Assembly (NCBI GenBank): GCA_024762475.1
Contig: JANTHJ010000010.1
Span: forward strand, 1 to 51,834
DNA length: 51,834 nucleotides
Direction of reading: 5' to 3'
DNA from: Chromatiales bacterium
Lineage (GTDB): Bacteria > Pseudomonadota > Gammaproteobacteria > Chromatiales > Chromatiaceae
The notes beneath the pieces were generated by a model, which saw only the letters and a list, made by a program, of their open reading frames with translations, made no database searches and was not told the origin of the DNA. The position numbers were made by a program, and so were the translations under genes. Position 1 is the stretch's first letter; each line of letters starts with the position of its first letter. Positions 21,145-43,586 of the stretch are shown here, piece after piece.

Positions 21145-22131
21145 CTAGTCGCCACTCCATACGATCTGGCCGCAGCCTCCCAGGTCGTATCCGCGCAGTT
21201 GCAGGGCGGTCTCGAGGCCCTTGTCCGAACGCAGCAGGGTGAGCAGCTGCTGGAACAGCTTGCGGAAGTAGATGCGGCGCGGGAGCGCAAGGTCGAACGC
21301 CTCCCAGCCGATGGGCAGAAAGTCCAGACCGAACTCGATCGCGACCGCCTCCGCGCCCGGGGCGCAGTCGGCCTTGCCCATGGCAATACTGGCGGCGGCC
21401 TCGCGTTCCGATCGTGCCTCGCAGGCATCCGCCAGCGCCCGAAGGTCGCGTTCACCGCCCGGGAGGGCATCGAGCAGAAACCGCTGGGCCCCGGAACCTG
21501 GCTGGCGCACCGTCCAACCCAGGCCTTGGTGACGGGTGCTGTGCATCAGGGTTTCGAGGGAGACGTCGGCAAGGTGCAGATGGGGATTGAGCAGGATGCC
21601 CTGTCGCCGCCGGAACAGCCGTACCAATACCCAATTGCGGTGTTGCGGATACTGTACCAGCAGGGCGGGGTGGCGGGTCGTCGATTCGCGGTCCGGCCCC
21701 CAGTGGAGCGCGCAGACATCGGCGCGGCTGGCCTGCAGCAGTTCCAGTCCAAGGCGCGTCCCCGTCGGGCTGTAGGTGAGCAGGGCATGCGCCCGGCTCT
21801 GCTGGGCGAAATCCAGCGCCAGGCGGTAGAGCAACGGGTCGTCGCTGCCACTGATCACCAGTCGGTCGTTGAGTAGACCTCCATGCGTCGCGTCGAGCAG
21901 CCAGCGGTCGATCAGCTCGCGGGGGAAGAGCCATTTGCCGGTCACCTTGGTGCCGGGAATCTCGCCTTCCTTGAGCAGTGCGTAGATCTTCTTTTCGTTC
22001 AGCTGCAGGTACTGCGCCACCTGGCGCACGCTCATGAAGGGAGGATAGTCGTCTGCTGCCGCCTTGTCGTCCAGTATCGCGGACACGTCAGACTGCCCGC
22101 CTCGCGGCAGCGACATCCGTCGGCGGCGCAT
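21145..22131 (-). CDS. HTH regulator with periplasmic-binding-protein-like sensor domain
   Basis: This protein of about 328 residues has an excisionase-type helix-turn-helix near residues 32-78 (MSVRQVAQYLQLNEKKIYAL, then PGTKVTGKWLFPRELIDRWL). The rest looks like the PBP-like domain (PF12727-type) often linked to molybdate, tungstate or molybdopterin regulation. It is the third gene of the moaA-fdhD operon and overlaps fdhD. The start is uncertain: ATGs at 22131 and 22116 are equally possible. The function is inferred from domain and context: sensing the oxyanion or cofactor and adjusting gene expression. Confidence 0.75.
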   Translation of the reverse strand: MRRRRMSLPRGGQSDVSAILDDKAAADDYPPFMSVRQVAQYLQLNEKKIYALLKEGEIPGTKVTGKWLFPRELIDRWLLDATHGGLLNDRLVISGSDDPLLYRLALDFAQQSRAHALLTYSPTGTRLGLELLQASRADVCALHWGPDRESTTRHPALLVQYPQHRNWVLVRLFRRRQGILLNPHLHLADVSLETLMHSTRHQGLGWTVRQPGSGAQRFLLDALPGGERDLRALADACEARSEREAAASIAMGKADCAPGAEAVAIEFGLDFLPIGWEAFDLALPRRIYFRKLFQQLLTLLRSDKGLETALQLRGYDLGGCGQIVWSGD

Positions 22132-22936
22132 CGAAGGTGATGTTCTCGGCGCCGTGATAGACCAGGAAGTGCCGGCCCTTGGCCCGAGCGATCAGGGTGA
22201 CCCCCAGGCGCCTCGCGAGGTCCAGTCCCATCTGGGTCAGGCCGGACCGCGAGAGCAGCAACGGGATGCCCATCTGGGCCACCTTCATCACCATCTCTGA
22301 GGTGAGGCGACCGGTGGTGTAGAAGCACAGGTCCTCGCCACCCAACTCCTCGAGCCACATCAGGCCGGCGAGGGTATCCACCGCATTGTGCCGGCCCACG
22401 TCCTCGACGAAGTGCAGCACCTCGGTGTCGTGGCAGAGCGCGCAACCGTGTACCGCGCCGGCACGGCGATAGATCTGGTTGTGGGTGTTGAGGTTCTCGA
22501 GCAGGGCGTAGATACGCGACTGGGCCACCCTCGGTAGCGGCAGCTCGACACGCTCCAGCGCTTCCATCAGGTTGCCGAAGACAGTGCCCTGCCCACAGCC
22601 GCTGGTGACGGTCTTGTGTGCCAGGCGCGAGTCCAGGTTATCGATGCCCTCATGGGTGGTGACCGCCACCGAATCGGTCTCCCAGTCGACCTGTATCGAA
22701 CGGATGCGATCCGGGCGATCGATCAGTCGCTGGTTGCGCAGCCAGCCGAGCACCAGCAGTTCGGGATGGGTGCCCAGGGTCATCAGGGTGACGACCTCGC
22801 GCTTGTCGATATACAGCGTCAGGGCACGTTCTGCCGCGATGTGCTGTTGACGCCTTGTGCCGAACTCGTCCACCGCCGTGACCGGGACACTCGATTCGAG
22901 GCCCGCAGCGCTCATCTCGATCAGGGGTTCGGTCAT
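22088..22936 (-). CDS. fdhD: Formate dehydrogenase sulfur-carrier protein FdhD
   Basis: This 282-residue FdhD-family protein passes sulfur from a cysteine desulfurase to the Mo/W-bis-pterin cofactor of formate dehydrogenase. Family blocks are clear: TVTSGCGQGTVFGN, THNQIYRRAGAVHGCALC, FVEDVGRHNAVDTLAGL, YTTGRLTSEMVMKVAQ and SRSGLT. In E. coli the functional loop is CxxC (Cys121/Cys124); here the loop reads CGQG with a single Cys, while a CALC pair occurs later. Its start is 1 bp after the moaA stop. Confidence 0.93.
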   Translation of the reverse strand: MTEPLIEMSAAGLESSVPVTAVDEFGTRRQQHIAAERALTLYIDKREVVTLMTLGTHPELLVLGWLRNQRLIDRPDRIRSIQVDWETDSVAVTTHEGIDNLDSRLAHKTVTSGCGQGTVFGNLMEALERVELPLPRVAQSRIYALLENLNTHNQIYRRAGAVHGCALCHDTEVLHFVEDVGRHNAVDTLAGLMWLEELGGEDLCFYTTGRLTSEMVMKVAQMGIPLLLSRSGLTQMGLDLARRLGVTLIARAKGRHFLVYHGAENITFDAPPTDVAAARRAV

Positions 22937-27822: not shown

Positions 27823-27825
27823 GCC

Positions 27826-29305: not shown

Positions 29306-29821
29306 ATGCGACCGATCGAACTGACCGACCACGCGGAACCGCAACTCTCCGACATGCCGGTCTCGGTGATGCTGGAGCGAAGGCCCGCCCAGGTACGGGA
29401 GTGGGTCGATCACCTGTGGGAGGTGATCGGCGTGGTGGCGGGCTCGACGGACGGGGGCGGCGCCGAACCCGTGCTGCAGACCGAGCAAGGGGTAGAGCGC
29501 TTTCTGCATGGCGGGCTGCGGCTGAACCTCTATCCCGACGAATGCGAGAGCTACTACCACAACCTGATGTCGCCTCGCCCGAGTTGCTACGTGGTGGCCC
29601 GTCTGGACGACGAAGACGAGCGCCGACCCGATCCCTTCCTGGTGACCATGAGCTTCGACGCCGCGCATGCCTATCTGGAGGGAGACGACGAAATCTTTGC
29701 GGTGGAGATTCCGCCTGAGATCTATTGCTGGACCGAGGCGTTCGTGCTGAGCTACTACGCCCCCGAGAAACGACGCAAGCGCAAGCTGGTCAAGGGGTCG
29801 GCCGGGGCGAGGGAGCAGTGA
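29306..29821 (+). CDS. DUF3305 formate dehydrogenase-associated protein
   Basis: This 171-residue protein is recognised by MPVSVMLERRPAQVREW, HGGLRLNLYPDECESYYHNL, and EIPPEIYCWTEAFVLSYYAP, which fit DUF3305. The family is found beside DUF3306 in formate dehydrogenase operons; no biochemical role is established. No signal peptide, so it should act in the cytoplasm, perhaps in enzyme maturation. The stop overlaps the DUF3306 start (TGATG at 29819-29823). Leader has AGGAGCGACTGCC before the ATG. Confidence 0.85.
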   Translation: MRPIELTDHAEPQLSDMPVSVMLERRPAQVREWVDHLWEVIGVVAGSTDGGGAEPVLQTEQGVERFLHGGLRLNLYPDECESYYHNLMSPRPSCYVVARLDDEDERRPDPFLVTMSFDAAHAYLEGDDEIFAVEIPPEIYCWTEAFVLSYYAPEKRRKRKLVKGSAGAREQ

Positions 29822-30387
29822 TGAAACCGATCGACCCGGCATTTCGCGAGGCCGCAGACGACGAGCCCTTTCTGCAACGATTCCATCGGCGCAAGCTGGC
29901 GGCGCGCCGGGGAGAAGCGCTGCCCGATGAGCCCCTGCCCGGGAACCCCGCGACGCCCGCCTCGGCCGCGCCATCCGAGCCCGAGCCGCTGCTGACCGAC
30001 GAGGACATGCCGCCCATTGAATCGTTGAGCGCTGAATCGGACTTCAGCGGCTTTCTGTCGCCGGGTGTCAGTGAGGACCTGCGCCGCGTCGCGTTGCGAC
30101 GTCTGTGGCAGGTGGCCGACCTGGACTTTGTCGATGAGCTCGACATCTACGCGGGCGACTACACCTCGTTCGAGCCGCTGGGTGGCCTGGTCACGCAGGA
30201 GATGAGTCGTAGGTTGGAACTGGCCGCGCGCCGCGAGGCCGAACGGTTGGTCGAGGACCGACCGGCAGGTAACCCGGCCATCGACGAGCAGGCCGAGGAC
30301 GAACGCGCAGACGCGACTGCACCAGATGAGAGGCCCCAGCAGATAACGCGGGTGGCGGAGCCGGAGGAGCAGACCGATGCAGGCTGA
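29821..30387 (+). CDS. DUF3306 formate dehydrogenase-associated protein
   Basis: This 188-residue protein opens with an FLQRFHRRKLAARRGEA block and a Pro/Ala/Glu-rich linker, followed by MPPIESLSAESDFSGFL and RRVALRRLWQVADLDFVDEL, the DUF3306 core. The tail is acidic and probably disordered. The family accompanies DUF3305 and a four-cluster ferredoxin upstream of Fdh genes. The function is unknown. It overlaps the next gene by 11 bp (30377-30387), so translation is probably coupled. Confidence 0.82.
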   Translation: MKPIDPAFREAADDEPFLQRFHRRKLAARRGEALPDEPLPGNPATPASAAPSEPEPLLTDEDMPPIESLSAESDFSGFLSPGVSEDLRRVALRRLWQVADLDFVDELDIYAGDYTSFEPLGGLVTQEMSRRLELAARREAERLVEDRPAGNPAIDEQAEDERADATAPDERPQQITRVAEPEEQTDAG

Positions 30388-32005
30388 AGATCAGCTACGG
30401 GCAAGGCGTAATGCCGAGGCGCGTGACCGCGCCCTGAGCAAGGCCGGGGACATGCAGACCGGGTCAGGCGGCAGCGTGACCTACCGATCCGAGGGGCGGA
30501 TCCTGGTGATCGGCGGCGAGGAGGCGCTGCTGTTCGCGCCGCGCCTGCTGCCGGAACTCAAGCCCGAGGTGTTGGTGACCGACGGCAGCGATGAGTCGAG
30601 CGTCCCGTCGGTCGCCCTGGCGGGCCGGCGTTGTGCCATCCAGGGTCACTTGGGGGCCTTCGAGATCGACCTCGGCGAGCCAGGAAGGCCGGGCCATCAG
30701 CGCCTGGTCTGCGACCTGATCCTCGACCTGACGACAGAGGGTATGGTCCCGACGGATCTTCCACCGCCTGGGTATTTCCGCAGTGATACCGAGCCGCTGA
30801 CACTCGACGGCATGGTGGATGAGCTCAAGGAGATGGTAGGCACCTTCGAGAAGCCGCGCTATTTCCAGTACGACCCGGATCGCTGTGCGCATGACCGCAA
30901 CGGCGTGACCGGCTGTACGCGCTGCCTGGATGCCTGCCCCGCCGAGGCGATCACCTCGCTGGGGGAACGCATCGAGGTGAACCCCTGGCTGTGTCAGGGC
31001 GGCGGTGCTTGCGCCAGCGTCTGCCCCTCGGGCGCCATCGAGTACAGCATGCCGCTGGCCGAGTCCCTGCAGGAGCGGGTGCGGCGGATGCTCAAGACCT
31101 ACCGCGACGCCGGGGGCACGGGCGCGGTGCTCTGCTTCCACACCGAGGACGCGGCAGACAGTATCCCGGCACGGCCGGAGCTGCTCCCGGTGGTGGTCGA
31201 GGAACTGGCCAGCGTTGGACCCGAACTGCTGCTCGGCGCGCTGGCCTATGGGGCGGCACAGGTCTGGCTATGGCAGGAGGGCGACCTGCCCGCACGGTCC
31301 CGTTGCGCCATCGAGGCGCAGCTGGCCTGGATCGGCCCCCTGCTCGAGTCGCAGGGCTATGCCGCCGATGTGCTGCGGCTGACGGATGCCGATCGCGCCT
31401 CCGGATCACCGGAAGCGGCCATGTCAGAAGACTTCGAGGCCGCCTCGTTCGCGCCGGCAGGCGACAAGCGCCAGCGCCTTTTTGCGCCGATCGATCACCT
31501 GCATGCCCAGGGGACGAAACCATTGCCGATGGTCGAGCTGGACGCCGGCGCGCCCTTTGGCACGGCGGGTATCAGCGACTCCCGCTGCACTCTTTGCATG
31601 GCCTGTGTGGGCGCCTGCCCTGGTCATGCCCTGCAGCCGGCTGGCGAGGAACCCGGGATCGATTTTGTCGAGGCCAACTGCCTACAGTGCGGCATTTGTA
31701 CCCGCACCTGCCCTGAGGATGCCATCTGGATCAGTCCACGGCTGTTGTTCGATGTCGAGGCCCGGCGCCGGCCGCGGGCACTGCATCGGGAGCCGGCTTT
31801 CGAGTGCGTGCGCTGCGGTAAGCCCTTCGGTACGCGCAGGATGGTGGACACAGTGCTGGAGCGGCTGAAGGGCAATCCCATGTTTACCACCGCCCGAGCC
31901 CGTAATCGGCTGAGGATGTGCGAGGAATGCCGGGTGGTCGACATGGCGGAAGACCAGGAAAGCGAACTCTTCGGACCAAAGGGGGAGCGGCGTCATGCGA
32001 GATGA
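30377..32005 (+). CDS. Polyferredoxin-type 4Fe-4S protein of the fdh accessory operon
   Basis: This 542-residue soluble protein has paired cluster motifs near residues 175-215 (CTRCLDACPAEAI; CQGGGACASVCPSGAI) and near 400-445 (CTLCMACVGACPGHAL; CLQCGICTRTCPEDAI). It also has two CxxC pairs near the C-terminus (CVRCGKP and CEECRVV) that could bind zinc or another cluster. The N-terminal 150 residues resemble nothing I can name. It may deliver electrons to the formate dehydrogenase during maturation or catalysis. It overlaps the TorD gene by 11 bp. Confidence 0.83.
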   Translation: MQAEDQLRARRNAEARDRALSKAGDMQTGSGGSVTYRSEGRILVIGGEEALLFAPRLLPELKPEVLVTDGSDESSVPSVALAGRRCAIQGHLGAFEIDLGEPGRPGHQRLVCDLILDLTTEGMVPTDLPPPGYFRSDTEPLTLDGMVDELKEMVGTFEKPRYFQYDPDRCAHDRNGVTGCTRCLDACPAEAITSLGERIEVNPWLCQGGGACASVCPSGAIEYSMPLAESLQERVRRMLKTYRDAGGTGAVLCFHTEDAADSIPARPELLPVVVEELASVGPELLLGALAYGAAQVWLWQEGDLPARSRCAIEAQLAWIGPLLESQGYAADVLRLTDADRASGSPEAAMSEDFEAASFAPAGDKRQRLFAPIDHLHAQGTKPLPMVELDAGAPFGTAGISDSRCTLCMACVGACPGHALQPAGEEPGIDFVEANCLQCGICTRTCPEDAIWISPRLLFDVEARRRPRALHREPAFECVRCGKPFGTRRMVDTVLERLKGNPMFTTARARNRLRMCEECRVVDMAEDQESELFGPKGERRHAR

Positions 32006-32624
32006 ACCGATGATGGACGGTCAGGTTCCGGTGGTCGGCACCCCGGCGGACGCAGTACAGGGCAGCGAGCGCGTTCTCTTGTACCGACTGCTCGCCTCGC
32101 TGCTGCGGCAGCCGCCACGCGAGGAGATGCTCACCTACCTTCGGACGCTGGAGACCGGGAGCGGGGAGGGGGGCGAGATGGGTGTGGCGTTGCAGATGTT
32201 GGGCCTGGCGGCTCGCAGTTCCACGCCGGGAAGGATCGACGACGAGTTCCATGAGCTGTTCATCGGACTGGGAAGAGGTGAGTTGGTGCCTTACGGTTCC
32301 TGGTATCTGACGGGCTACCTGATGGAGCAGCCATTGGCGCGGCTGCGCGAGGACATGGCGCGGCTGGGCTTCGTCCGTGAAAGCACCTCGAGTGAGCCGG
32401 AAGACCATATCGCCTCGGCAATGGAGGTGATGTCCTTCCTGGCCGAGGGGCCGGAGCCGCTTTCGGTCCAGGCCGCTTTCCACGATGTCCACCTGGCACC
32501 CTGGGTGGGACGATTCTTCGAGGACCTGGCGCAGGCCCGCGCGGCGGTGTTCTATCGTTCGGTGGCGCGATTGGGTGCGCTATTCGTCGAGAGTGAGCGA
32601 TTATTGCTGGAGGGGGCGAACTGA
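31995..32624 (+). CDS. TorD/DmsD-family molybdoenzyme chaperone
   Basis: This all-helical chaperone of 209 residues has the TorD-family blocks LYRLLASLLRQPP, EFHELFIGLGRGELVPYGSWY and EDHIASAMEVMSFLAEG, with FFEDLAQARAAVFYRSVA near the C-terminus. Such proteins bind the Tat signal of a partner and hold it until the cofactor is inserted. The partner is probably the Tat-signal-bearing formate dehydrogenase alpha subunit downstream. It ends the accessory transcript; an 860-bp stretch without genes follows. Confidence 0.88.
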   Translation: MRDEPMMDGQVPVVGTPADAVQGSERVLLYRLLASLLRQPPREEMLTYLRTLETGSGEGGEMGVALQMLGLAARSSTPGRIDDEFHELFIGLGRGELVPYGSWYLTGYLMEQPLARLREDMARLGFVRESTSSEPEDHIASAMEVMSFLAEGPEPLSVQAAFHDVHLAPWVGRFFEDLAQARAAVFYRSVARLGALFVESERLLLEGAN

Positions 32625-32656
32625 GGGCATCCCGATATCACGATGATGGGTTGCTG

Positions 32657-33290: not shown

Positions 33291-33393
33291 ATCGCCAAGC
33301 CCAAATCGCACCCTGCCCACGCATCCGGTAGCGATTCGCACAACATCCTTATCCATATCGTTCCCTTCTTGTCATTCCTTTCCACCTCCGATT

Positions 33394-33409
33394 GGTATCG
33401 CCCTTGCAG
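33394..33409 (+). promoter_or_regulatory. Sigma-54 promoter of the formate dehydrogenase operon
   Basis: TGGTATCGCCCTTGCA keeps GG-N10-GC and the TTGCA -12 element; the -24 side (TGGTATC for TGGCACG) is weaker. The expected transcript start is near 33420, 65 nt before the Tat-peptide gene. Confidence 0.7.
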
Positions 33410-33484
33410 GCTATCTGATGGATTCGGTACCGGCGCGTCTGGCACGCGCCATCACAACCTCAATATCGAGCAGAGGGCGGCACC

Positions 33485-33697
33485 ATGACAGACGAGCGCA
33501 ACGGGCAGGGCAAGACCCGCAGAGATTTTCTGAAGGACGTGACGATAGCTGGCGGCGGACTGGCTGCAACGGCAGTGCTGCCCGGCGCTGCAATGGCTGC
33601 GGTCGATCGGGGTGCGGAGAAGGCGGGGGGAGAGGGCGAGGAAGGCTACCGGCTGACCGAGCACGTCTCACGTTATTACGAAACGCTCAAGCGCTGA
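33485..33697 (+). CDS. Small Tat-signal protein of formate dehydrogenase regions
   Basis: This 70-residue protein consists of a twin-arginine signal (KTRRDFLKDVTIAGGGLAA) and a short tail (YRLTEHVSRYYETLKR). It matches the family called formate dehydrogenase region TAT target (TIGR02811-type), always found just before the alpha subunit. The role is unknown; it might assist Tat export or become a small subunit. It is the first gene after the sigma-54 promoter and 12 bp before the alpha subunit. Confidence 0.85.
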   Translation: MTDERNGQGKTRRDFLKDVTIAGGGLAATAVLPGAAMAAVDRGAEKAGGEGEEGYRLTEHVSRYYETLKR

Positions 33698-33709
33698 GGG
33701 GAGCGGCAG

Positions 33710-36604
33710 ATGAAACTCAAAAAGATATCCGAAAGCATTGAGCCGGCGGTCACTGTGGAGCCCAAGGCGGCAACGAAGCGGGCGCCAGGACTGAGCCGCC
33801 GCGACTTTCTGCGCAACACGGGCGTCATCGGTGGCAGTGCGGCCTTGGGCAGTCTGTTGGCACCTGCGATGGTGCAGCGCGCCGAGGCCGCCGCGGAGTC
33901 GCAGGCGCAAGGGGCAGTCAAACAGGTCAAGACCATCTGCACCCATTGCTCGGTGGGCTGCGGCATCATCGCCGAGGTACGCAGTGGTGTCTGGGAGGGT
34001 CAGGAGCCCGCCTTCGATCATCCCTTCAACCTGGGGGCACACTGCGCCAAGGGTGCCTCGGTGCGCGAGCACGGTCACGGCGAGCGTCGCCTCAAGTACC
34101 CGACCAAGCTGGTGGACGGCAAGTGGAAACGGGTCTCCTGGGACGAGGCGATCAACGAGATCGGTGACAGGCTGCTGACGATCCGCAAGGAGTCCAGCCC
34201 CGACTCGGTCTACTGGCTCGGCTCGGCCAAGCACAATAACGAGCAGGCCTACCTGTTCCGCAAGCTGGCCGCCATGTGGGGCACCAACAACGTCGATCAC
34301 CAGGCGCGTATCTGTCATTCGACCACCGTGGCCGGGGTGGCCAACACCTGGGGCTACGGTGCGATGACCAATTCCTACAACGATATCCACAACTCGAAGT
34401 CGATTCTGTTGATCGGCTCCAACCCCGCCGAGGCGCACCCGGTGGCCCTGCAGCACATCTTCAAGGCCAAGGAGGAGAACAATGCGCCGATCGTGGTTAT
34501 CGACCCCCGGTTCACCCGCACGGCGGCGCATGCCAATCACTTCCTGCGCATCCGTCCCGGTACCGACGTGCCGATCATCTGGGGCATGCTCTGGCATATC
34601 TTCCAGAACAACTGGCAGGACGAGACCTTTATCCGCCAGCGGGTCTATGGCATGGACGAGGTCAAGGCCGAGGTGGCCAAGTGGACCCCCGACGAGGTGG
34701 AACGGGTCACCGGGGTGCCGGAACAACAGGTCTTTGCGGCCACCAAGGTGATGGCGGACAACCGACCCGGTACCTTCATCTGGTGCATGGGTGGGACCCA
34801 GCACACCATCGGCAACAACAATACCCGGGCCTACTGCATCTTCCAGCTGGCGCTGGGCAACATGGGTGTGTCCGGCGGCGGGGCCAACATCTTCCGTGGC
34901 CACGACAACGTGCAGGGTGCGACCGACCTGGGCGTGCTGGCCAATACGCTCCCCGGTTACTACGGCCTGGCACCCGGCTCCTGGGGCCACTGGTCAAGGG
35001 TCTGGGATCTGGACCTGGACTGGGTCAAGGGCCGTTTCGACGACGGCAGCTACGAGAAGAAGGGCGACAAGGCCGTACCGGTGATGAACACCAAGGGGAT
35101 TCCGGTCTCGCGTTGGATCGATGGAGTGCTCGAGGACAAGGCCAATATCGCGCAGAAGGACAATATCCGCGCCATGATCTTCTGGGGCCACGCCCCCAAC
35201 TCGCAAACCCGCGGCCCCGAGATGAAACAGGCGATGGAGAAGCTCGACCTGCTGGTGGTGGTCGATCCCTATCCGACCCTGTCGGCGGTGATGCACGACC
35301 GCAAGGAGGGCGTCTATCTGCTGCCAGCCTGCACCCAGTTCGAGACCTATGGCTCGGTGACCGCATCCAACCGCAGCCTGCAATGGCGTGACAAGGTGAT
35401 CGACCCGCTGTTCGAGTCGTTGCCCGATCACACCATCATGTACAAGCTGGCGAAGAAGCTCGGCATCGCCGACCAGCTGTGCAAGCACATCCAGGTCAAT
35501 AACGACGAGCCACTGTTGGAGGACATCACGCGCGAGTTCAATCGCGGCATGTGGACCATCGGTTATACCGGCCAGAGTCCAGAGCGCCTGAAGCTGCAGC
35601 AGCAGCATTGGGGCACCTTCGACTACACCTCGCTGGCCGCCGAAGGCGGGCCCTGCGATGGAGAGTACTACGGGTTGCCCTGGCCCTGCTGGGGCAACCC
35701 GGAGATGAAGCATCCTGGGACACCCAATCTATACGATGGCAGCAAGCCGGTGGCCAAGGGCGGCCTGACCTTCCGCGCCCGCTTTGGGGTGGAACGCAAT
35801 GGGGTCAACCTGCTTGCCGAAGGCTTCTACTCCAAGGGCTCGGAGATCAAGGATGGCTATCCCGAGTTCACCGACAAGCTGCTCAAGAAGCTGGGCTGGT
35901 GGAAGGATCTGACGCCCGAGGAGCAGCAGGCAGCCGAGGGCAGGAACTGGAAGACCGATCTCTCCGGCGGCATACAGCGGGTGGCGATCAGGCGCGGCTG
36001 CGCACCCTTCGGCAACGCCAAGGCACGGGCGGTGGTCTGGACCTTCCCGGATCCTGTGCCGATTCACCGCGAGCCACTCTACACCAGTCGGCGGGATCTG
36101 GTGAGCAAGTACCCGACCTATGAGGACCGGAAGTCCTTCTGGCGGCTGCCGACCCGTTATGGCTCGATTCAGGCGACCGACTATTCCAAGGACTTCCCGA
36201 TCGTGCTCACGTCCGGGCGCCTGGTCGAATACGAGGGCGGAGGCGACGAGTCGCGTTCCAATCCCTGGCTCGCCGAGCTGCAGCAGCACATGTATGCCGA
36301 AATCAACCCGCGCGACGCCAACAACGTCGGGATACGCGACGGCGACACTATCTGGCTCGAGACCCCAGAGGGCAAGGTCAAGGTGCAGGCGATGGTGACC
36401 CGGCGCGTTGCCCCGGGCGTGGCCTTCATGCCTTTCCACTTCGGCGGGGTCTTCGAGGGTCGCGATCTGCGCGACAAGTATCCCAAGGGGGCCGATCCCT
36501 ATGTGCTGGGTGAGGCGGCCAATACTGCCTTCACCTACGGTTACGACTCGGTGACCCAGATGCAGGAAACCAAGTGCAGCCTGTGCCGCATCCAGAAGGC
36601 CTGA
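33710..36604 (+). CDS. fdhA: Formate dehydrogenase alpha (catalytic) subunit
   Basis: This 964-residue Mo/W-bis-PGD enzyme oxidises formate, or reduces CO2, on the periplasmic side. A Tat signal is present (LSRRDFLRNTGVIGGSAALG, about residues 25-45). A [4Fe-4S] motif CTHCSVGCGII near residue 80 ends with a further Cys in GAHCAKG. The metal ligand is Cys202 in RICHSTTVAGVANTWG, where FdnG-type enzymes have selenocysteine, so no UGA recoding is needed. The C-terminal block MQETKCSLCRI is as in Fdh3-type enzymes. The beta subunit starts 13 bp downstream. Confidence 0.95.
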   Translation: MKLKKISESIEPAVTVEPKAATKRAPGLSRRDFLRNTGVIGGSAALGSLLAPAMVQRAEAAAESQAQGAVKQVKTICTHCSVGCGIIAEVRSGVWEGQEPAFDHPFNLGAHCAKGASVREHGHGERRLKYPTKLVDGKWKRVSWDEAINEIGDRLLTIRKESSPDSVYWLGSAKHNNEQAYLFRKLAAMWGTNNVDHQARICHSTTVAGVANTWGYGAMTNSYNDIHNSKSILLIGSNPAEAHPVALQHIFKAKEENNAPIVVIDPRFTRTAAHANHFLRIRPGTDVPIIWGMLWHIFQNNWQDETFIRQRVYGMDEVKAEVAKWTPDEVERVTGVPEQQVFAATKVMADNRPGTFIWCMGGTQHTIGNNNTRAYCIFQLALGNMGVSGGGANIFRGHDNVQGATDLGVLANTLPGYYGLAPGSWGHWSRVWDLDLDWVKGRFDDGSYEKKGDKAVPVMNTKGIPVSRWIDGVLEDKANIAQKDNIRAMIFWGHAPNSQTRGPEMKQAMEKLDLLVVVDPYPTLSAVMHDRKEGVYLLPACTQFETYGSVTASNRSLQWRDKVIDPLFESLPDHTIMYKLAKKLGIADQLCKHIQVNNDEPLLEDITREFNRGMWTIGYTGQSPERLKLQQQHWGTFDYTSLAAEGGPCDGEYYGLPWPCWGNPEMKHPGTPNLYDGSKPVAKGGLTFRARFGVERNGVNLLAEGFYSKGSEIKDGYPEFTDKLLKKLGWWKDLTPEEQQAAEGRNWKTDLSGGIQRVAIRRGCAPFGNAKARAVVWTFPDPVPIHREPLYTSRRDLVSKYPTYEDRKSFWRLPTRYGSIQATDYSKDFPIVLTSGRLVEYEGGGDESRSNPWLAELQQHMYAEINPRDANNVGIRDGDTIWLETPEGKVKVQAMVTRRVAPGVAFMPFHFGGVFEGRDLRDKYPKGADPYVLGEAANTAFTYGYDSVTQMQETKCSLCRIQKA

Positions 36605-36617
36605 GGAGAGACTGACC

Positions 36618-37253
36618 ATGGCAAGAATGAAATTCTATTGTGACGCCGAGCGGTGCATCGAGTGCAACGGCTGCGTGACCGCCTGCAAGAACGAGAACGA
36701 AGTACCTTGGGGAGTCAATCGCCGGCGGGTGGTGACCATCAAGGATGGCGAGCGCGGCGAGCGTTCGCTGTCGGTGGCCTGCATGCATTGCTCCGATGCC
36801 CCCTGTGCGGCGGTCTGCCCGGTGGACTGCTTTTACACCACCAAGGAAGGCGTGGTGCTGCATGACAAGGACATCTGCATCGGCTGCGGTTACTGCTTCT
36901 ACGCCTGTCCCTTCGGTGCGCCCCAGTTTCCCGAGGACGGGGCCTTTGCCTCCCGCGGCAAGATGGACAAGTGCACCTTCTGCGCCGGTGGGCCCGAAGA
37001 GACCGGCAGCGCCGACGAGTTCCGCAAGTACGGCCGCAACCGCCTCGCCGAAGGTAAGCTACCGCTGTGCGCCGAGATGTGCGCCACCAAGGCATTGCTC
37101 GCGGGAGACGCAAACGTCATAGCCGATATCTACCGGCAACGGGTGGTCAATCGCGCCGCCAGTTCCCTGGCCCATGGGGTCGAGTTGCAGCGGCAAAAGT
37201 TCCGCGCCACGCCAGAGCGTGAGCGCACCAGAACGCGGGGCAGTGAGGGCTGA
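36618..37253 (+). CDS. fdhB: Formate dehydrogenase beta iron-sulfur subunit
   Basis: This 211-residue ferredoxin-type subunit has the four-cluster arrangement of FdhB/Fdh3B: CIECNGCVTACKNEN, CMHCSDAPCAAVCPVDC, CIGCGYCFYACPFG, and CTFC with CAEMC. It should carry electrons from the alpha subunit to cytochrome b. No signal peptide is present, so it would cross the membrane with the alpha subunit through Tat. There is a 99-bp gap before the gamma gene. Confidence 0.93.
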   Translation: MARMKFYCDAERCIECNGCVTACKNENEVPWGVNRRRVVTIKDGERGERSLSVACMHCSDAPCAAVCPVDCFYTTKEGVVLHDKDICIGCGYCFYACPFGAPQFPEDGAFASRGKMDKCTFCAGGPEETGSADEFRKYGRNRLAEGKLPLCAEMCATKALLAGDANVIADIYRQRVVNRAASSLAHGVELQRQKFRATPERERTRTRGSEG

Positions 37254-37352
37254 GGTGTCCTTCTTCCAGGCTCCGCCATCGGTTGGCGGCGCAGGGGACG
37301 AGGCCGTCCGATTGAACCCTCCTGCACTAGCGGGAAGGTCAGGGGAGGGAGT

Positions 37353-38327
37353 ATGAGGCATTGGTGGGTCTGGGTCTGGCTGTGTCTGGGGGCGACGCTG
37401 TTTCCGCCGGTACACGCGGCCGGCCCCTCGACGGACAAGGTGCTCAATCCGGGCGCGGAGTTGTGGAACGAGGTGCGCGGCCGGCAGGCGGCTCCCGCGA
37501 CCACCCAGGTCCAGGGGCGCGATAGCCAGGTGCTGGTAAACGAATGGGGCGAGCATTTTCGCGACTACCGGCGTCAGCGGTTTGTCCGCTACAGTGGCTA
37601 CCTGCTGGCGGGGGTTGTTTCCCTCCTGCTGCTCTATCACCTGCTGCACGGCGGGCTGGAGGTTACCGAGAGCGGACGCAAGGTGCTGCGCTTCGAGCTG
37701 ACCGAGCGCATCGTGCACTGGTTGCTTGCCGGTGTGTTCCTGTTGCTCACGGTCACTGGCGTGGTTCTGGCCTTTGGGCGCTTCGTGGTCCTCCCCTGGT
37801 CTGGGCCAGAGGTCTTTGCAGTAATCGCCAGTGCCTCGAAGGAAGGGCACAACCTGTTCGGTCCGCTGTTCATTGTGGCGTTGCTGTGGTTCTTCGTGTT
37901 GTTTGTCGGCCGCAACCTGCCGAGACTGGTGGATATCTACTGGCTGATCCGCGCGGGCGGCATGCTGGGCGGAGGGCATCCAGCTGCCGGTTTCTTCAAC
38001 GGCGGCGAAAAGATCTGGTTCTGGATCCTGACGATCGGAGGGCTGGCCGTCTCGACCTCCGGTGTCGTGCTCGACTTTCCAGCGCTGGTGGAGGGGCGCA
38101 ATCCCCTGGTCCTGGCGCTGGTGGTGCACGGGATCGCGGCGGTGGTGCTGATAGCCGCCTCCTTCGGCCACATGTATCTGGGCACCCTGGGGGTGAAGGG
38201 TTCGCTCGAAGGCATGAAGAGCGGCCTGGTGGACGAGGCATGGGCGCATGCCCACCACGTGCTCTGGTACGAGGAGCTAAATCGCAAGGCGCAGGCTGAG
38301 AGTTCTGCCAGGGAGCAAGGCCAATGA
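37353..38327 (+). CDS. fdhC: Formate dehydrogenase gamma subunit (cytochrome b)
   Basis: This 324-residue protein has an N-terminal signal-like segment (WWVWVWLCLGATLFPPVHAAG), a periplasmic part of about 65 residues, and four membrane segments of the FdnI/FdoI family. Candidate heme-b ligands lie in LLYHLLHGGLEV, ERIVHWLLAG, KEGHNLFG, SFGHMYLG and AHAHHVLWYEE. It links formate oxidation to the quinone pool. Its stop overlaps the next gene by 4 bp (ATGA), so the operon continues into a NarI-like protein. Confidence 0.92.
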   Translation: MRHWWVWVWLCLGATLFPPVHAAGPSTDKVLNPGAELWNEVRGRQAAPATTQVQGRDSQVLVNEWGEHFRDYRRQRFVRYSGYLLAGVVSLLLLYHLLHGGLEVTESGRKVLRFELTERIVHWLLAGVFLLLTVTGVVLAFGRFVVLPWSGPEVFAVIASASKEGHNLFGPLFIVALLWFFVLFVGRNLPRLVDIYWLIRAGGMLGGGHPAAGFFNGGEKIWFWILTIGGLAVSTSGVVLDFPALVEGRNPLVLALVVHGIAAVVLIAASFGHMYLGTLGVKGSLEGMKSGLVDEAWAHAHHVLWYEELNRKAQAESSAREQGQ

Positions 38328-38968
38328 CCGTCACCGAGTTCGTGGATGGCCCGCTTTGGTATTTCGCCTTGGCGGTATTCTTTCTCGGTATCGCCTGGCG
38401 CCTGGTTGTGATCCTTGCCAACGGCTGGCGCGGTGATCTGAGCAGACCACGGCGTTCGGGACTGACAGGGTCAGTACGCGCGCTGTTCAGTCGCTTTGCG
38501 CCGGCGCCCGGGATAGGGCGCCGTATCGGTCTGCATCTCACAGGTGGCTACCTCTTTCATCTGGGCCTGTTCGCGCTGTTGCTGTTTGCAGCACCCCACG
38601 TGGCCTTCTATGCAGAGAGACTTTCCCTGCCCGCGTGGCAGCCGATGCCCCACTGGGCCTTTGTGCTGGTGTCCGAGCTGGCCTTCATAGGGCTGATGTT
38701 GTTGTGGCTCAATCGGGTGCTCAACCCTGTTACGCGGCTGATTTCGTCAACCGGCGATCACCTCTCGTCGATCCTGACCTTTCTGGTCATGCTCTCCGGC
38801 TGTCTTGCGCTGGAGCAGGCGCACGAGCCTTTGCGGGTGCTGCATTTCTTTCTGGTGGAAGTACTGATGATCTACTTCCCGTTCAGCTCGCTAATGCACG
38901 CATTCACTTTCGTGCTGAGTCGCGAGGCACTGGGCTACCGCTATGGCAGGCGAGGCGTGCCCGTCTGA
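38324..38968 (+). CDS. NarI/HdrE/DsrM-like membrane cytochrome
   Basis: This 214-residue inner-membrane protein has about five hydrophobic segments and likely heme ligands in LHLTGGYLFHLGLFALLL and in the C-terminal LRVLHFFLVEVLMIYFPFSSLMH. The profile fits the nitrate-reductase-gamma-like subunits that pair with HdrD/DsrK-type proteins (HdrE, DsrM, TmcC). No nitrate reductase genes are near. With the next gene it forms a second quinone-reactive module in the formate dehydrogenase operon. Start ATG 38324 overlaps the gamma subunit stop. Confidence 0.8.
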   Translation: MTVTEFVDGPLWYFALAVFFLGIAWRLVVILANGWRGDLSRPRRSGLTGSVRALFSRFAPAPGIGRRIGLHLTGGYLFHLGLFALLLFAAPHVAFYAERLSLPAWQPMPHWAFVLVSELAFIGLMLLWLNRVLNPVTRLISSTGDHLSSILTFLVMLSGCLALEQAHEPLRVLHFFLVEVLMIYFPFSSLMHAFTFVLSREALGYRYGRRGVPV

Positions 38969-38996
38969 TCCCTCACATCGATGTAGGAGTGCCTCC

Positions 38997-40331
38997 ATGG
39001 CCGTCGACATGAATGTCTTTCGCGGGTTTCTGCAGCAGGTCAGGCAGCTGCCGGCCATGGCACAGCCGACCGAGTGCCCGGACACAGAGCGGGTGGCGGC
39101 GGTCAAGGCCGTGTTCAAGGAAAGGATCGATGCGGGGGTGGCCAGCCACCTGGAGGCCTGCGTGCATTGCGGCATCTGTGCCGAGGCCTGCCACTTCTTC
39201 GTACAAACCGGCGATCCGCAATTTACGCCGATCCACAAGCTCGAGCCCCTGCGACGTTTCTACCGGCGCGAAAAGGGCCCCTTTGCCTGGCTCTACCGTC
39301 TGATTGAAAGGGACATCGAAGAGACCGATCTCGAGCAGTGGCAGCGGTTGGTCTACGACAGCTGCACCGAGTGCGGGCGTTGCAGCTTCGCCTGCCCGCA
39401 GGGGGTGGACATCGCCCACATGGTCGTCATCATGCGCCGGGCCCTGGCCAACGCCGGGCTGATTCCCGCAGGGCTACGCGCGGTCGAGCAGGAACAGGGC
39501 AGCCAGGGAACTGTCTTCGGTGTTGGCCCCAAACAGCTCATGGCCGCCGTCGAGGCCTTGCGGGTCAGGGGCTATGAGGTGCCAGTCGACAAGGACAAGG
39601 CGGATGTGCTGGTGCTCACGGCCACCACCGATATCCTGCTATTTCACGATGCCATGGAATCGACGGTGCGCATCATGAATCACCTGGGTGTGGATTGGAC
39701 CATCCACACCTGCGCCTTCGAGGGCGCCAACTTTGGCATGCTGTCGGGCTATGAAAAGGTACAGAAGGCGGCGTCCGAGCGCATCATCCGCGAGGCGATT
39801 CGCTGTGGCGCCAAGGTGGTGATCATCCCGGAGTGCGGTCATGCCTACCCTGCCATGCGCTGGGAGGGTGCCAACGAGCATGGCGAACCGCTGCCGTTCG
39901 AGGTGATGGCAATCTCCGAGTTCATCGGGCGCCAGGTGATGGACGGCAAGTTGAGCCTCAAGCCGATCGGCAAGGGGCGGCGGGTTACCTATCATGACCC
40001 CTGCAAGGTCGGCCGCCACGGGGGCGTATTCGACGAGCCTCGGGCCGTACTCGATGCCCTCGGTGTGGAGCGCGTCGAGCTTCCTGACAATCGCGAGATG
40101 AACTATTGCTGCGGTGGCGGCGCAGGGCTGTTCGTCATCGATACCGCGGAACGCTATCGCGCATTGGCTTTCGACCTCAAGCGGAAGCAGGTCGAGGCGA
40201 CCGGGGCCCAGAGCCTGATTACCGCCTGCGACAGTTGTCGACTGAGCTTTCTCGCCGGCACCGATCGAACCCAGTGGGACCGCCCGATCGAAAGCCTGGT
40301 GGAATTGGTGGGACAGGCGTTGCCGGATTGA
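38997..40331 (+). CDS. HdrD/DsrK-like CCG-domain iron-sulfur protein
   Basis: This 444-residue protein has two [4Fe-4S] motifs near the N-terminus (CVHCGICAEACHFF and CTECGRCSFACPQG). A C-terminal CCG (Cys-rich) domain follows with HDPCKVGRHGG, NYCCGGGAGL and ACDSCRLSF. The first CCG domain is degenerate (HTCAFEGANFG and IPECGHAY, without the paired Cys). Relatives (HdrD, DsrK, TmcB) act on disulfides or persulfides and pair with NarI-like cytochromes. Start MAVDMNVF has AGGAG 8 bp upstream. The electron acceptor is unknown. Confidence 0.82.
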   Translation: MAVDMNVFRGFLQQVRQLPAMAQPTECPDTERVAAVKAVFKERIDAGVASHLEACVHCGICAEACHFFVQTGDPQFTPIHKLEPLRRFYRREKGPFAWLYRLIERDIEETDLEQWQRLVYDSCTECGRCSFACPQGVDIAHMVVIMRRALANAGLIPAGLRAVEQEQGSQGTVFGVGPKQLMAAVEALRVRGYEVPVDKDKADVLVLTATTDILLFHDAMESTVRIMNHLGVDWTIHTCAFEGANFGMLSGYEKVQKAASERIIREAIRCGAKVVIIPECGHAYPAMRWEGANEHGEPLPFEVMAISEFIGRQVMDGKLSLKPIGKGRRVTYHDPCKVGRHGGVFDEPRAVLDALGVERVELPDNREMNYCCGGGAGLFVIDTAERYRALAFDLKRKQVEATGAQSLITACDSCRLSFLAGTDRTQWDRPIESLVELVGQALPD

Positions 40332-40408
40332 GGGGAGATGACCTGTTCAATGCAACTTTCAGTCCCGGTCCCGCATCAAACAAAGAGTCAATCAGGAGGA
40401 TTCTTGCC

Positions 40409-40978
40409 ATGAAACGCTTCGTTACCGTCTTGTTCGTCACCCTGTTCAGTCAGAGTTTACTGGCGGGCTGGGCGCTCGACAGTGCTGCGTCCACTTTCCA
40501 TTTTCTGAGCACCAAGAAGAATAGCATTGCCGAGATCCACAGCTTCGAGCGTCTGAGTGGCTCGATAGGGGATGACGGGCGAGCGACTCTGGCAATCGAC
40601 CTGGCAAGTGTGCAGACCGGGGTGGACATCCGAGACCAGCGCATGCGAGACATGCTGTTCGAGGTATCGCGTTTCGCGCAGGCAACCGCACAGCTGACAG
40701 TTGCTCCGGCACAGCTAGAGGCGCTGAATCCTGGTGACCAACTTCATTTACGGCAGGACGCCACGATCGACCTGCACGGCGTCTCCAAGACTATGCCGGT
40801 CGACCTGCTGGTAACCCGTCTGGGCGACGGCTCGCTGCAGGTGCAGACGCTCAAGCCGATCATTCTCAATGCACCTGACTTCGGCCTCGCCCAGGGCGTA
40901 GAAGCGCTGCGCGCCATCGTCAATCTGAGCTCGATCGATACCGCGGTGCCTGTCACCTTCAACCTGCGGTTCAGATAG
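40409..40978 (+). CDS. YceI-family periplasmic protein
   Basis: This 189-residue lipocalin-like beta-barrel is preceded by a signal peptide (RFVTVLFVTLFSQSLLAG). The pattern STFHFLSTKKNSIAEIHSF at the N-terminus and the IDLHGVSKTMPVDLLVTR block are of YceI, a family that binds polyisoprenoid-like ligands, including quinones. It sits 77 bp after the HdrD-like gene with its own ribosome site (AGGAGG) and may be the last gene of the fdh operon. A quinone link is suggestive but unproven. Confidence 0.83.
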   Translation: MKRFVTVLFVTLFSQSLLAGWALDSAASTFHFLSTKKNSIAEIHSFERLSGSIGDDGRATLAIDLASVQTGVDIRDQRMRDMLFEVSRFAQATAQLTVAPAQLEALNPGDQLHLRQDATIDLHGVSKTMPVDLLVTRLGDGSLQVQTLKPIILNAPDFGLAQGVEALRAIVNLSSIDTAVPVTFNLRFR

Positions 40979-41188: not shown

Positions 41189-42457
41189 TTACACGAACCC
41201 CGCAAAGGGCTGCACCGTCACCTCTTCCCCCGCCTCCAGACTGCCCTGCTCCTCGTCCAGCAGGATGAAGCAGTTGCCGGTGCTCATCGAGCGCAGGATG
41301 CCCGAGCCCTGGGCGCCGGTAGTGGTTACCCAGGGTTGGGTGTTGTCGCCGCTCTGCTCGAGGATGCCGCGCACGAATTCGGATCGGCCGGGGCGTTTGC
41401 GCAGGGGCTCGCGCAGGCGCGCCCGCATTCGCAGCGGCTGCCAATCGGTCTCGCCGGCGAGTCGGTGCAGGGCGGGCAGGACGAATTGGTAGAAGGTGAC
41501 CATCACCGCCACCGGGTTACCGGGCAGGCCGAAGAACCAGGCATCGCCCAGCCGACCGAAGGTCAGCGGCCGGCCGGGCTTCATGGCGATCTTCCAGAAG
41601 TCGACCTCGCCGAGCTCGCCCAGCACCTGCTTGGTGTAGTCGGCATCGCCCACCGAGACGCCGCCGGAGGTGATCACCAGGTCGGCATGCGCGGCCGCAT
41701 CCGCGAAGGCATCGCGCAGGGCGTCCGGGTCGTCGCGGATCACCCCCAGGTCCCGCAGCTCGGCACCGGCCCGGGTGAGCATGCCGAACAGGGTGTAGCG
41801 ATTGCTGTCATAGACCTCGCCCTCGCCGAGCGGCTCGCCCAGCGAGCGCAGTTCGTCGCCGGTGGAGAAGAACGCCACGCGCGGTCGGCGCACCACGCTT
41901 ACCTCCGCCTGGCCCAGGGAGGCGAGCAGGCCGAGGTCGGCAGACGTGAGGCGCTTGCCGGCCGCGAGTGCCGGCGAGCCCTTGGCCAGATCCTCGCCCG
42001 CCTGGCGGATATTCTGGCCGAGCCGCTCGCCACCGCCGAAGGTGATGTGCTCGCCGTTCTCTTCGACGTGCTCGCGCATCACCACCGTATCCACGCCGAC
42101 CGGGAGCGGCGCGCCAGTCATGATGCGCACGCACTCGCCGGTCCCGATCTCCGCGGCAAAGGACTGGCCCGCCATCAGGGTGCCGATGCAGCGCAGGGTG
42201 ACCCTGCCCTCCGGGTCGAGATCGGCATGTCGGACGGCGAAACCATCCATGGCCGAATTGGTGTGGCCCGGAACATCGATGGGAGAGATGACATCCTCGG
42301 CCAGAATGCGGTCGAGGGCGCTGCGGATGGGCAGCCGCTCGGGCCCGCTCAGGGGTGTGATGCTGCGCAGTATCTGTTGCCGCGCCTCATCGACGTTCAG
42401 CACGCCCGATTCGCGGTCGTCCGCACAGCTGGGGGCATTGCGAATGGTGCTGCTCAC
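41189..42457 (-). CDS. moeA: Molybdopterin molybdenumtransferase MoeA
   Basis: This 422-residue MoeA inserts the metal into adenylated molybdopterin. The blocks VPGHTNSAMDGFAV, RIMTGAPLPVGVDTVV, FFSTGDEL, DLVITSGGVSVGDADYTKQV and KPGRPLTFG are typical. It is the last gene of the six-gene tupABC-mobAB-moeA operon and overlaps mobB by 4 bp. Its link with tungstate uptake suggests it may insert tungsten; MoeA sequence alone does not separate the two metals. Confidence 0.94.
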   Translation of the reverse strand: MSSTIRNAPSCADDRESGVLNVDEARQQILRSITPLSGPERLPIRSALDRILAEDVISPIDVPGHTNSAMDGFAVRHADLDPEGRVTLRCIGTLMAGQSFAAEIGTGECVRIMTGAPLPVGVDTVVMREHVEENGEHITFGGGERLGQNIRQAGEDLAKGSPALAAGKRLTSADLGLLASLGQAEVSVVRRPRVAFFSTGDELRSLGEPLGEGEVYDSNRYTLFGMLTRAGAELRDLGVIRDDPDALRDAFADAAAHADLVITSGGVSVGDADYTKQVLGELGEVDFWKIAMKPGRPLTFGRLGDAWFFGLPGNPVAVMVTFYQFVLPALHRLAGETDWQPLRMRARLREPLRKRPGRSEFVRGILEQSGDNTQPWVTTTGAQGSGILRSMSTGNCFILLDEEQGSLEAGEEVTVQPFAGFV

Positions 42458-42996
42458 GAGGCGATCCGAGAGGCCGGTTCGTTCAGGCGGTCCAGTATGA
42501 AGTCGGCGATGCCGCCGGGGTCGTTCATGTCGAGCAACGGGAGCGGACGCGGCAACTCGACTGGTGCGTCACTGGCGACTGCGATCACCTCCGGTACTTC
42601 GGCGCAAATCAGATCGCGCCCCATAGCGGGCCGATGCAGTTCTATCTTGGGGCAGGGTTCGTGTTTGAAGCCCTCTACCAGCACCAGATCCAGTGCGTCG
42701 GGATCGAGCAGGGCCAGGCTGTCGGCCAGCGAAGGCTCGGTACGGTCGTCGTCGTACTCGGTGATCAAGGCGGCGCGCCGCCGCGAGGCGACAACCGTCT
42801 GACTGGCCCCGGCGTGACGTAGCACCCAGGAGTCCTTGCCCGGCTTGTCGATGTCGAAATCGTGGTGGGCGTGTTTGACAATGGCCAGGCGCAGGTCGCG
42901 CTCACGCAGCAGCGGGATCAGGTGGGACAGCAGGGTGGTCTTGCCCGTGCCGGACCAGGCGCAGAAGCCGAGCAGGGGCAGCGGGAAATCGGTCAT
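42454..42996 (-). CDS. mobB: Molybdopterin-guanine dinucleotide biosynthesis adapter MobB
   Basis: This 180-residue P-loop GTPase has Walker A FCAWSGTGKTTLLSHL at the N-terminus, the KHAHHDFDIDKPGKDSW block and VLVEGFKHEPCPKIELHR, which are characteristic of MobB. It assists MobA in attaching GMP to molybdopterin. The ATG at 42996 overlaps the mobA stop, and the longer open frame upstream is mobA in another frame. Confidence 0.93.
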   Translation of the reverse strand: MTDFPLPLLGFCAWSGTGKTTLLSHLIPLLRERDLRLAIVKHAHHDFDIDKPGKDSWVLRHAGASQTVVASRRRAALITEYDDDRTEPSLADSLALLDPDALDLVLVEGFKHEPCPKIELHRPAMGRDLICAEVPEVIAVASDAPVELPRPLPLLDMNDPGGIADFILDRLNEPASRIAS

Positions 42997-43586
42997 GGGC
43001 GGGCCTCCGGGAACTGTTGGTAGTCTTCCGGGCGATTGAGGTTGAGAAACGCATCCGCACGGTCCGAGAAGTCGACCGCGACCATGGGATGACGGGCGTA
43101 CCAGATATCTATTTTTCGCTCGCCTGCCGCCAGGAAATCCTCCAGGTCGTCCAGCAGGGCGACATCCAGCAGGGCATGGGCCGGCTGCAGGCGCCGCCCG
43201 TCGTGGGCCACCGCGATGCGCGCATCCGCTGCCTCGCGCCCGGCCCATAGCCGCGTGACCAGGTCCGGTGGGATCTGGGGGGTGTCGCAGGGCACGGTGA
43301 CCAGCCAGGAATCTTCGCAGACTTCCATCAGCGCGGCGAAACCGGCGAGCGGTCCCTGGTGACCTTCGAGACGGTCGTTGATCACCGGGTGGCCGTAGCG
43401 TCGATACTGCTCGAGATTGCGGTTGGCGTTGATCAGCAAGTGGTTCACCTGGGGCAACAGGCCTTCCATGACGTGTTCGATCAGGGGCCGGCCGGCGAAC
43501 TCCGCCAGGCCCTTGTCGACGCCCCCCAGGCGCGACCCCCGGCCGCCGGCCAGGATGCCCCCGGTGATCGGTGGGTGGTCGCTCAT
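42993..43586 (-). CDS. mobA: Molybdenum cofactor guanylyltransferase MobA
   Basis: This 197-residue nucleotidyltransferase starts MSDHPPITGGILAGGRGSRL and carries the GTP-binding loop LAGGRGSRLGGVDKGL, then QGPLAGFAALME and TVPCDTPQIPPDL. It makes the bis-MGD form of the cofactor needed by formate dehydrogenase. It overlaps tupC and mobB by 4 bp each, so the set is tightly coupled. Confidence 0.94.
   Translation of the reverse strand: MSDHPPITGGILAGGRGSRLGGVDKGLAEFAGRPLIEHVMEGLLPQVNHLLINANRNLEQYRRYGHPVINDRLEGHQGPLAGFAALMEVCEDSWLVTVPCDTPQIPPDLVTRLWAGREAADARIAVAHDGRRLQPAHALLDVALLDDLEDFLAAGERKIDIWYARHPMVAVDFSDRADAFLNLNRPEDYQQFPEARP

Follow-up and report, generated by a model that had tools for sequence, protein, structure and literature searches.

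Why should a formate dehydrogenase (FDH) operon continue into genes for a NarI-like cytochrome b and a CCG-domain iron-sulfur protein? This question is raised by a 51,834-nucleotide stretch of a Chromatiales bacterium (contig JANTHJ010000010.1, positions 1 to 51,834; hereafter the window). The initial annotation had described FDH alpha, beta and gamma genes followed, through a 4-bp overlap, by an HdrE/HdrD-like pair, and the open reading frames and profile matches confirm this order: fdhC and the NarI-like gene share the four bases ATGA. The observations reported below concern the genes and their order, predicted folds, ligand residues, conservation, a conflict between trees and an association with Dsr sulfur metabolism. 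We consider it virtually certain that the pair (hereafter the module, with genes hdrE and hdrD) is a real unit related to Isp1/Isp2 proteins. The data suggest that an FDH with such a pair is a variant of the known Isp conduit, in which formate dehydrogenase replaces hydrogenase.

Judged from its matches, the catalytic part is a formate dehydrogenase of the FDH3 type. FdhA aligned over 950 residues with chain A of 9vap, a solved formate dehydrogenase (1527 bits), and FdhB with chain B over nearly its whole length (325 bits). FdhB and FdhC scored above the cut-offs for the FDH3 beta (NF038355, 341.4 vs. 240 bits) and formate dehydrogenase gamma (TIGR01583, 156.6 vs. 115.85 bits) subunits, and FdhA below that for the curated alpha subunit (TIGR01591, 454 vs. 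666 bits). FdhA contains SRRDFLRN, which we take to be a twin-arginine motif, and Cys202-His203. FdhC retains His122, His166, His259 and His273, together with Asn216 and Gly218; the four histidines aligned with 1kqf_C and were invariant across the aligned sequences (rows), and those that bind heme are presumably the ones that do so in 1kqf_C. Residues 160, 161 and 168 of FdhC, beside a heme-ligand histidine, are near-constant in operons with the module and variable in those without it, and may form a contact site. The module-adjacent FdhC proteins do not form a separate clade (rejected, P = 0.0002), and these three residues are a lead only. The naming of sulfite dehydrogenases and FDHs has been a source of confusion (PMC6504805; papers are cited here for individual passages), but a sulfite dehydrogenase misnamed as FDH was ruled out by the nearly full-length matches of FdhA and FdhB to 9vap and by the FDH3 beta score.

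The NarI-like protein matched three NCBIfam models, all under their cut-offs (TmcC, 80.9 vs. 240 bits; HmcE, 74.5 vs. 275; DsrM, 18.6 vs. 300), and was also below the Pfam Nitrate_red_gam cut-off. Its predicted structure (predicted local distance difference test, pLDDT, 89) matched the NarI fold with a Z score of 13.6. His79, His92, His174 and His192 were invariant (His92 in 57/57 rows), and His79, His174 and His192 aligned with NarI His56, His187 and His205, which we take to be heme ligands. In the membrane-subunit tree, a single branch with a support of 100 separated 42 fdh-type rows from 15 others, of the hydrogenase-linked (hyn) type. The window protein was 48–60% identical to 35 other fdh-type rows, and 31–36% identical to five hyn rows of type A.

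The CCG protein was likewise under the NCBIfam cut-offs for DsrK (219.7 vs. 400 bits), HmcF (169.1 vs. 750) and TmcB (162.9 vs. 735). It contains two 4Fe-4S motifs and one complete CCG motif, and the sole Pfam CCG stretch spans residues 348–436. Alignment of 57 rows with seven DsrK rows identified 14 common cysteines (C73, C76, C79, C83, C141, C144, C147, C151, C298, C354, C389, C390, C429 and C432, counted from position 38943; the last five are gapped in one or two rows), all of which are cysteines in 7/7 DsrK rows. Two cubanes and one CCG cluster would be expected per protein. Cys298 is the only conserved cysteine of the first CCG domain, and this incomplete domain is ancestral, because DsrK has the same ligand set. 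The “lost” cysteine of the initial annotation is not upheld: DsrK matches the window protein at each ligand cysteine, ruling out a cysteine loss in the latter. The predicted structure (pLDDT 92.6) matched EtfD over 389 residues (Z score 27.4) and HdrB over model residues 202–444 (Z scores 20.5–21.5), so both CCG halves are predicted to be present as folds.

A CCG match was found in 29 of 38 genomes searched (the window's own included), many being DsrK at about 33% identity. The surroundings were examined for the 25 matches with at least 36% identity, from relatives in the genus, family and class: 17 loci had hydrogenase genes, seven had fdh genes (genomes G000, G008, G010, G013, G014, G016 and G018) and one had neither. 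Both hyn- and fdh-linked copies were present in five genomes (G008, G010, G013, G014 and G018). The arrangement hynS-isp1-isp2-hynL is that of group 1e hydrogenases (PMC7735108). The window has the homologous cytochrome b and CCG protein, in that order, as expected of an Isp1/Isp2 pair, but fdhABC takes the place of the hydrogenase small and large subunits of group 1e; the nearest hydrogenase large subunit in the same genome (54% identical) is on contig C145. By these neighbourhoods, the nearest relatives of the pair are Isp1/Isp2 of group 1e [NiFe] hydrogenases, not HdrDE. The description “HdrE/HdrD-like” remains apt, but not as a statement of closest kinship. Restriction of the module to FDH was ruled out, hyn-linked copies being common. 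The initial annotation had named occurrence mostly without fdh as an argument against its proposal; this is what was found for the module at large (17 hyn vs. 7 fdh loci of 25), whereas the fdh-type membrane subunit, with a clade of its own, does not follow this pattern.

Three other loci deserve mention. The Isp1-Isp2 pair at L040 (G009 contig 127, 3692–5742) is of type A; no gene for a hydrogenase or a formate dehydrogenase was recognised within the 19 kb examined, and the pair may have a third partner or stand alone. It is labelled as hyn in the row sets, and its membrane subunit groups with hyn rows in the tree. In a hyn operon of the same genus as the window (L042, 7656–12499), isp2 and hynL are broken by stops and split frames, reflecting decay or assembly errors. 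A plasmid search yielded nothing useful beyond a match in Methylovirgula, on plasmid pHY1 (L059, 172–6734), where an F0F1 ATP synthase operon lies about 8 kb from Isp-type hydrogenase genes.

The search for the adjacency across genomes that the initial annotation had proposed revealed a conserved fdh-pair neighbourhood. The fdh-type membrane protein, a query that makes the set lean to fdh by design, was used to scan the genome_contigs collection (84,980 species); 133 relatives were identified, 80 of which were kept. A CCG frame lay beside the membrane gene in 78 of the 80 loci (not L110 and L120). Among these 78, fdhA or fdhB plus fdhC occurred within 9 kb on the same strand in 61, fdhC only in 14 and none of them in three; in seven of these 17 loci (L073, L104, L109, L112, L114, L125 and L139), no more than about 1 kb of contig remains upstream. 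The adjacency is not a matter of chance, because 61/78 loci keep fdhA/B, fdhC, hdrE and hdrD together and because fdhC and hdrE overlap by exactly 4 bp in 47/76 loci, the window included. The hosts, by record title, include Sedimenticola, Thiodiazotropha, Cocleimonas, the Solemya velum and Olavius algarvensis symbionts, Jhaorihella and Hyphomicrobiaceae. In a class sample of 274 genomes, an FDH3 FdhB over cut-off was present in 34 and the fdh-type HdrE in 10 (at least 249 bits; next score, 175). The two genes lay within 3 kb on one contig in eight of the 34 FDH3 genomes and on different contigs in one (G232); a further genome, G109, has the fdh-type HdrE, yet its FdhB is under the cut-off.

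Variant arrangements were also seen. Tandem fdhC genes precede hdrE in L080, L083, L094, L097, L104 and L134, with the far copies forming one clade (support 100). Triads of fdhC, hdrE and hdrD apart from fdhAB (L079, L091, L103, L117, L119, L124 and L133) suggest that the trio is a unit. In the 11 genomes with no fdhAB beside the module in the stretch examined, an FDH3 FdhB was found elsewhere in eight (the exceptions being L119, L133 and L112, the last with a contig end immediately upstream). Cocleimonas flava is a named host with such a separate module.

The quick trees (Shimodaira-Hasegawa-like approximate likelihood ratio test support only) conflict for the two subunits. In the CCG tree with a DsrK outgroup, the window and four fdh rows fell into sets with hyn rows (support 98 and 95), which also contained L106 and L133; the remaining fdh CCG rows and ten other hyn rows lay beyond a split with a support of 82. 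A single fdh-type CCG group was rejected (P = 5 × 10−65; 57 rows, no DsrK or other outgroup). The window CCG protein was 34–44% identical to 35 other fdh-type rows, and 46–55% identical to the five type-A hyn rows (L040 among them). The CCG partner appears to have been exchanged, because the membrane subunits form two clades, the CCG proteins do not, and the window CCG protein is of the hyn type. In this lineage, a hydrogenase-type CCG protein thus seems to have entered the fdh operon. We infer that the cytoplasmic partner of the CCG proteins is of one kind, regardless of the enzyme in the periplasm.

The module is associated with Dsr sulfur metabolism. In the class sample, with DsrA counted at 300 bits or more (92 DsrA genomes), DsrA was present in 9/10 genomes with the fdh module, vs. 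83/264 others (Fisher's exact test, P = 0.0003); considering only DsrA above the curated cut-off, these values were 8/10 and 79/264 (P = 0.002). The comparison restricted to FDH3 genomes plus G109 gave 9/10 with the module vs. 12/25 without it (P = 0.028; 8/9 with the module if G109, with its FdhB under cut-off, is left out). DsrA was found in 24 of the 28 genomes with an Isp1-like score, one of them (G240) on the basis of fragments of up to 204 bits (23/28 without it); this comparison used 93 DsrA genomes, including G240, and the hyn type was assigned by score (118–175 bits) rather than locus by locus. DsrA over cut-off was found in 27 of the 35 genomes behind the scan loci, including 12/16 whose record titles are alphaproteobacterial. 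Judged by their coordinates, at least three of the 35 appear to duplicate class-sample genomes (G300/G109, G320/G013 and G329/G175), which means that the sets cannot be treated as independent. In the genome of the window itself, DsrA occurs as two pieces at contig ends, and there are a DsrK-like gene and five DsrC-family matches over cut-off.

On this basis, we favour, with moderate confidence, an Isp-type conduit from periplasmic formate to a cytoplasmic sulfur substrate. A periplasmic FDH3-type FdhAB, held on the FdhC anchor, would oxidise formate outside the cell. Electrons would pass from FdhC to the hemes of the Isp1-like subunit, by contact or through quinol, and would cross the membrane to the Isp2/DsrK-like CCG protein on the cytoplasmic face. 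The special CCG cluster would then reduce a disulfide, persulfide or trisulfide, most likely on a Dsr-pathway carrier such as DsrC. With electrons flowing inward, the system would form an energy-conserving redox loop and be the formate counterpart of a group 1e hydrogenase. The parts of this proposal differ in strength: the pair very probably works with this FDH and is, with similarly high probability, a conduit to the cytoplasm; the inward direction is fairly probable, a sulfur substrate only a little less so, and DsrC itself is a tentative candidate. DsrK can reduce DsrC, and DsrM is a di-heme protein (PMC8076601). Group 1e hydrogenases are described as an electron input for sulfur respiration (PMC7735108, PMC10892978), primarily so according to HydDB (PMC5037454), and dark sulfur reduction with H2 has been called the sole major physiological role known for T. 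bogorovii HydSL (PMC10892978). It is possible rather than probable that all these elements form one FdhABC-HdrED complex, a formate:DsrC (or persulfide) oxidoreductase with which Dsr-type sulfur oxidisers and their animal-symbiont kin would respire stored or protein-bound sulfur with formate while conserving energy, the CCG protein being a plug shared or exchanged between hydrogenase and FDH complexes. The two-module complex of the initial annotation may exist. Its link from formate to thiols or persulfides is retained as a possibility, but a direct route is only one option: with the heme and quinone-side residues of FdhC conserved, quinone may mediate the transfer.

Several observations weigh against the conduit. 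DsrA over cut-off was found neither in G262 nor in 8/35 other module genomes, and is also present in 12/25 module-free FDH3 genomes; the Dsr statistics ignore phylogeny, and their background is a single class, with no alphaproteobacterial genome. The FdhC proteins of module and module-free operons intermix on the tree. No histidine of the membrane subunit aligned with NarI His66, so a second heme is not assured, although one is likely, with the invariant His92 instead. Other observations, most of which count against the conduit as well, suit an arrangement in which FdhABC would form a complete formate:quinone oxidoreductase, and HdrE-HdrD, sharing only the operon, would act separately as a quinol:sulfur-carrier oxidoreductase. 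The four histidines and the Asn/Gly pair of FdhC are conserved in 37/37 module rows, 21/21 module-free rows and a further 6/6 rows. Module-free FDH3 operons are common: 25/34 FDH3 genomes lack the fdh-type HdrE, so FdhABC can do without the pair (no HdrE or HdrD frame was recognised in these 25 stretches, and FdhC was found in 21, not in L178, L191, L199 and L201). Where modules lie apart from fdhAB, six of the eight separate fdhAB stretches have their own fdhC (the exceptions being L226 and L227, the latter a stretch that ends nearby), and hdrE-hdrD occurs without fdhC in L106 and L127. Against such a quinone-linked pair stand the hyn loci examined, which have no fdhC between hynS and isp1, suggesting that Isp1 can work without such an anchor, and the 4-bp fdhC-hdrE overlap. 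We regard this arrangement as possible rather than probable.

The flow might instead be outward, the CCG protein oxidising a cytoplasmic sulfur carrier and feeding quinone or driving the reduction of CO2 to formate, with the fdh genes sharing it. This uphill direction would need a driving force (formate/CO2, about −430 mV; S0/HS−, about −270 mV), and the genome already has a DsrK-like gene for this step, on the same contig as dsrA and dsrC. These points render outward flow improbable, even though Dsr genes are present in most of the module genomes tested, the named hosts include Dsr-type sulfur oxidisers (presumably so by their lifestyle) and HydDB calls group 1e physiologically reversible (PMC5037454). 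A model for an archaeal hydrogenase with Isp1 and Isp2 supports the topology of the conduit proposed here by placing Isp2 on the cytoplasmic side; in contrast to this conduit, it delivers electrons to quinone via Isp1 or to a low-potential acceptor via Isp2 (PMC11018855). By analogy with this published proposal, the CCG protein could reduce a low-potential carrier (ferredoxin, NAD) for biosynthesis, perhaps by bifurcation; no flavin or NAD subunit was recognised within 29725–40978, and the tie of the module to Dsr also renders this reading very improbable. That the pair is a mere gene neighbour, with no role in formate metabolism, might be argued from the hyn-linked copies and from the absence of the pair from most FDH3 genomes of the sample, but the separate clade of the fdh-type membrane subunit, the conserved fdh neighbourhood and the presence of FDH3 in 8/11 genomes with the module elsewhere leave this with a negligible probability.

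The CCG gene probably starts at 38997 (MAVDMNV...), because near homologues (loci L039 and L106) begin at about the equivalent of codon 19; from this start, it follows the NarI-like gene without overlap. The features of the operon and its surroundings are listed in the table.

Features of the fdh operon and associated genes in the window
Feature	Coordinates	Strand	Basis
FdhD/NarQ family protein	22088..22936	-	Family assignment
DUF3306 protein	29725..30387	+	Recurrent in fdh cluster
4Fe-4S protein, 542 aa	30377..32005	+	Recurrent in fdh cluster
TorD-like chaperone, same gene cluster	31995..32624	+	Profile match
FdhA, formate dehydrogenase catalytic subunit, presumably periplasmic	33710..36604	+	9vap_A match; below TIGR01591 cut-off
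FdhB, FDH3-type iron-sulfur subunit	36618..37253	+	NF038355; 9vap_B
FdhC, cytochrome b gamma subunit	37353..38327	+	TIGR01583; 1kqf_C match, E 2.9e-26
Isp1/HdrE-like NarI-fold cytochrome b, fdh-linked clade	38324..38968	+	Profiles, tree, model, alignment
Isp2/HdrD/DsrK-like CCG iron-sulfur protein	38997..40331 (open frame from 38943)	+	Hydrogenase-operon type

A YceI-family gene (40379–40978) lies directly 3' of the CCG gene. At the module-free locus L185, a YceI gene (6833–7501) lies between fdhB and fdhC, and its FdhC is sister to that of the window. On both sides of the fdh cluster (21145–28728 and 41189–46020), fdhD, moaA, moeA- and mobA/mobB-like genes (by eye only), an ATP-binding cassette transporter with a PBP-like binding protein, which may be of the tungstate type (a guess), and an aldehyde ferredoxin oxidoreductase gene (24576–26564), with a flavoprotein gene (26476–27822), were seen; together, they indicate a tungsten or molybdenum gene set. 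The carbonic anhydrase gene upstream of the cluster (28147–28728) fits CO2/formate chemistry.

We found no fdh-linked Isp pair in the open-access literature, among the matches listed, most of the subscription literature lying outside this scope. The isp genes had been thought exclusive to two hydrogenase groups, to which a third was added in 2024 (PMC11018855). The passages cited from related papers concern the reshuffling of Qmo and Hdr (PMC10504309) and formate dehydrogenase genes in hdrA/hdrL loci (PMC2702500), rather than this pair; in A. vinosum, the formate dehydrogenase genes Alvin_2452-2454 were raised on pyrite (PMC11267869). The dedicated, widespread use of the pair with FDH suggests a general role for the conduit, as an adaptor that connects a donor in the periplasm with sulfur chemistry in the cytoplasm. 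A link between formate and sulfur is predicted for Sedimenticola, Cocleimonas, the Solemya velum symbiont, Thiodiazotropha and several alphaproteobacteria, and named strains such as Sedimenticola selenatireducens and Cocleimonas flava offer a tractable system for determining what the special cluster of Isp2/DsrK-like proteins reduces.

The window system shares parts with several known ones. Its catalytic part is like that of other FDH3-type FdhABC enzymes (9vap for FdhAB), 25/34 of the FDH3 genomes being without the fdh-type HdrE. The CCG fold is common to HdrDE, but the window protein has one complete CCG motif where HdrDE would have two, which rules out HdrDE proper. Mycobacterial EtfD (9ojn), which serves electron-transfer flavoprotein, has both folds fused in one chain, with Z scores of 27.4 (CCG part) and, more weakly, 9.2 (membrane part). 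TmcB/TmcC and HmcF/HmcE of sulfate reducers embody the same idea, a conduit from a periplasmic donor, and gave the best NCBIfam matches of the window membrane subunit, far below the cut-offs; no cytochrome c gene was recognised in the window operon. The CCG protein has the 14 cysteines of DsrK from DsrMK and is 28–31% identical to it in local alignments, but it is under the DsrK cut-off and in a separate clade, with no dsrJOP among the genes identified beside it. Closest is the Isp1/Isp2 pair of group 1e hydrogenases, with the same protein families, the same ligand residues and, in most loci, the same membrane-then-CCG order; in the window, this pair follows fdhABC, and its membrane subunit, 31–36% identical to those of the five type-A rows, belongs to a separate clade.

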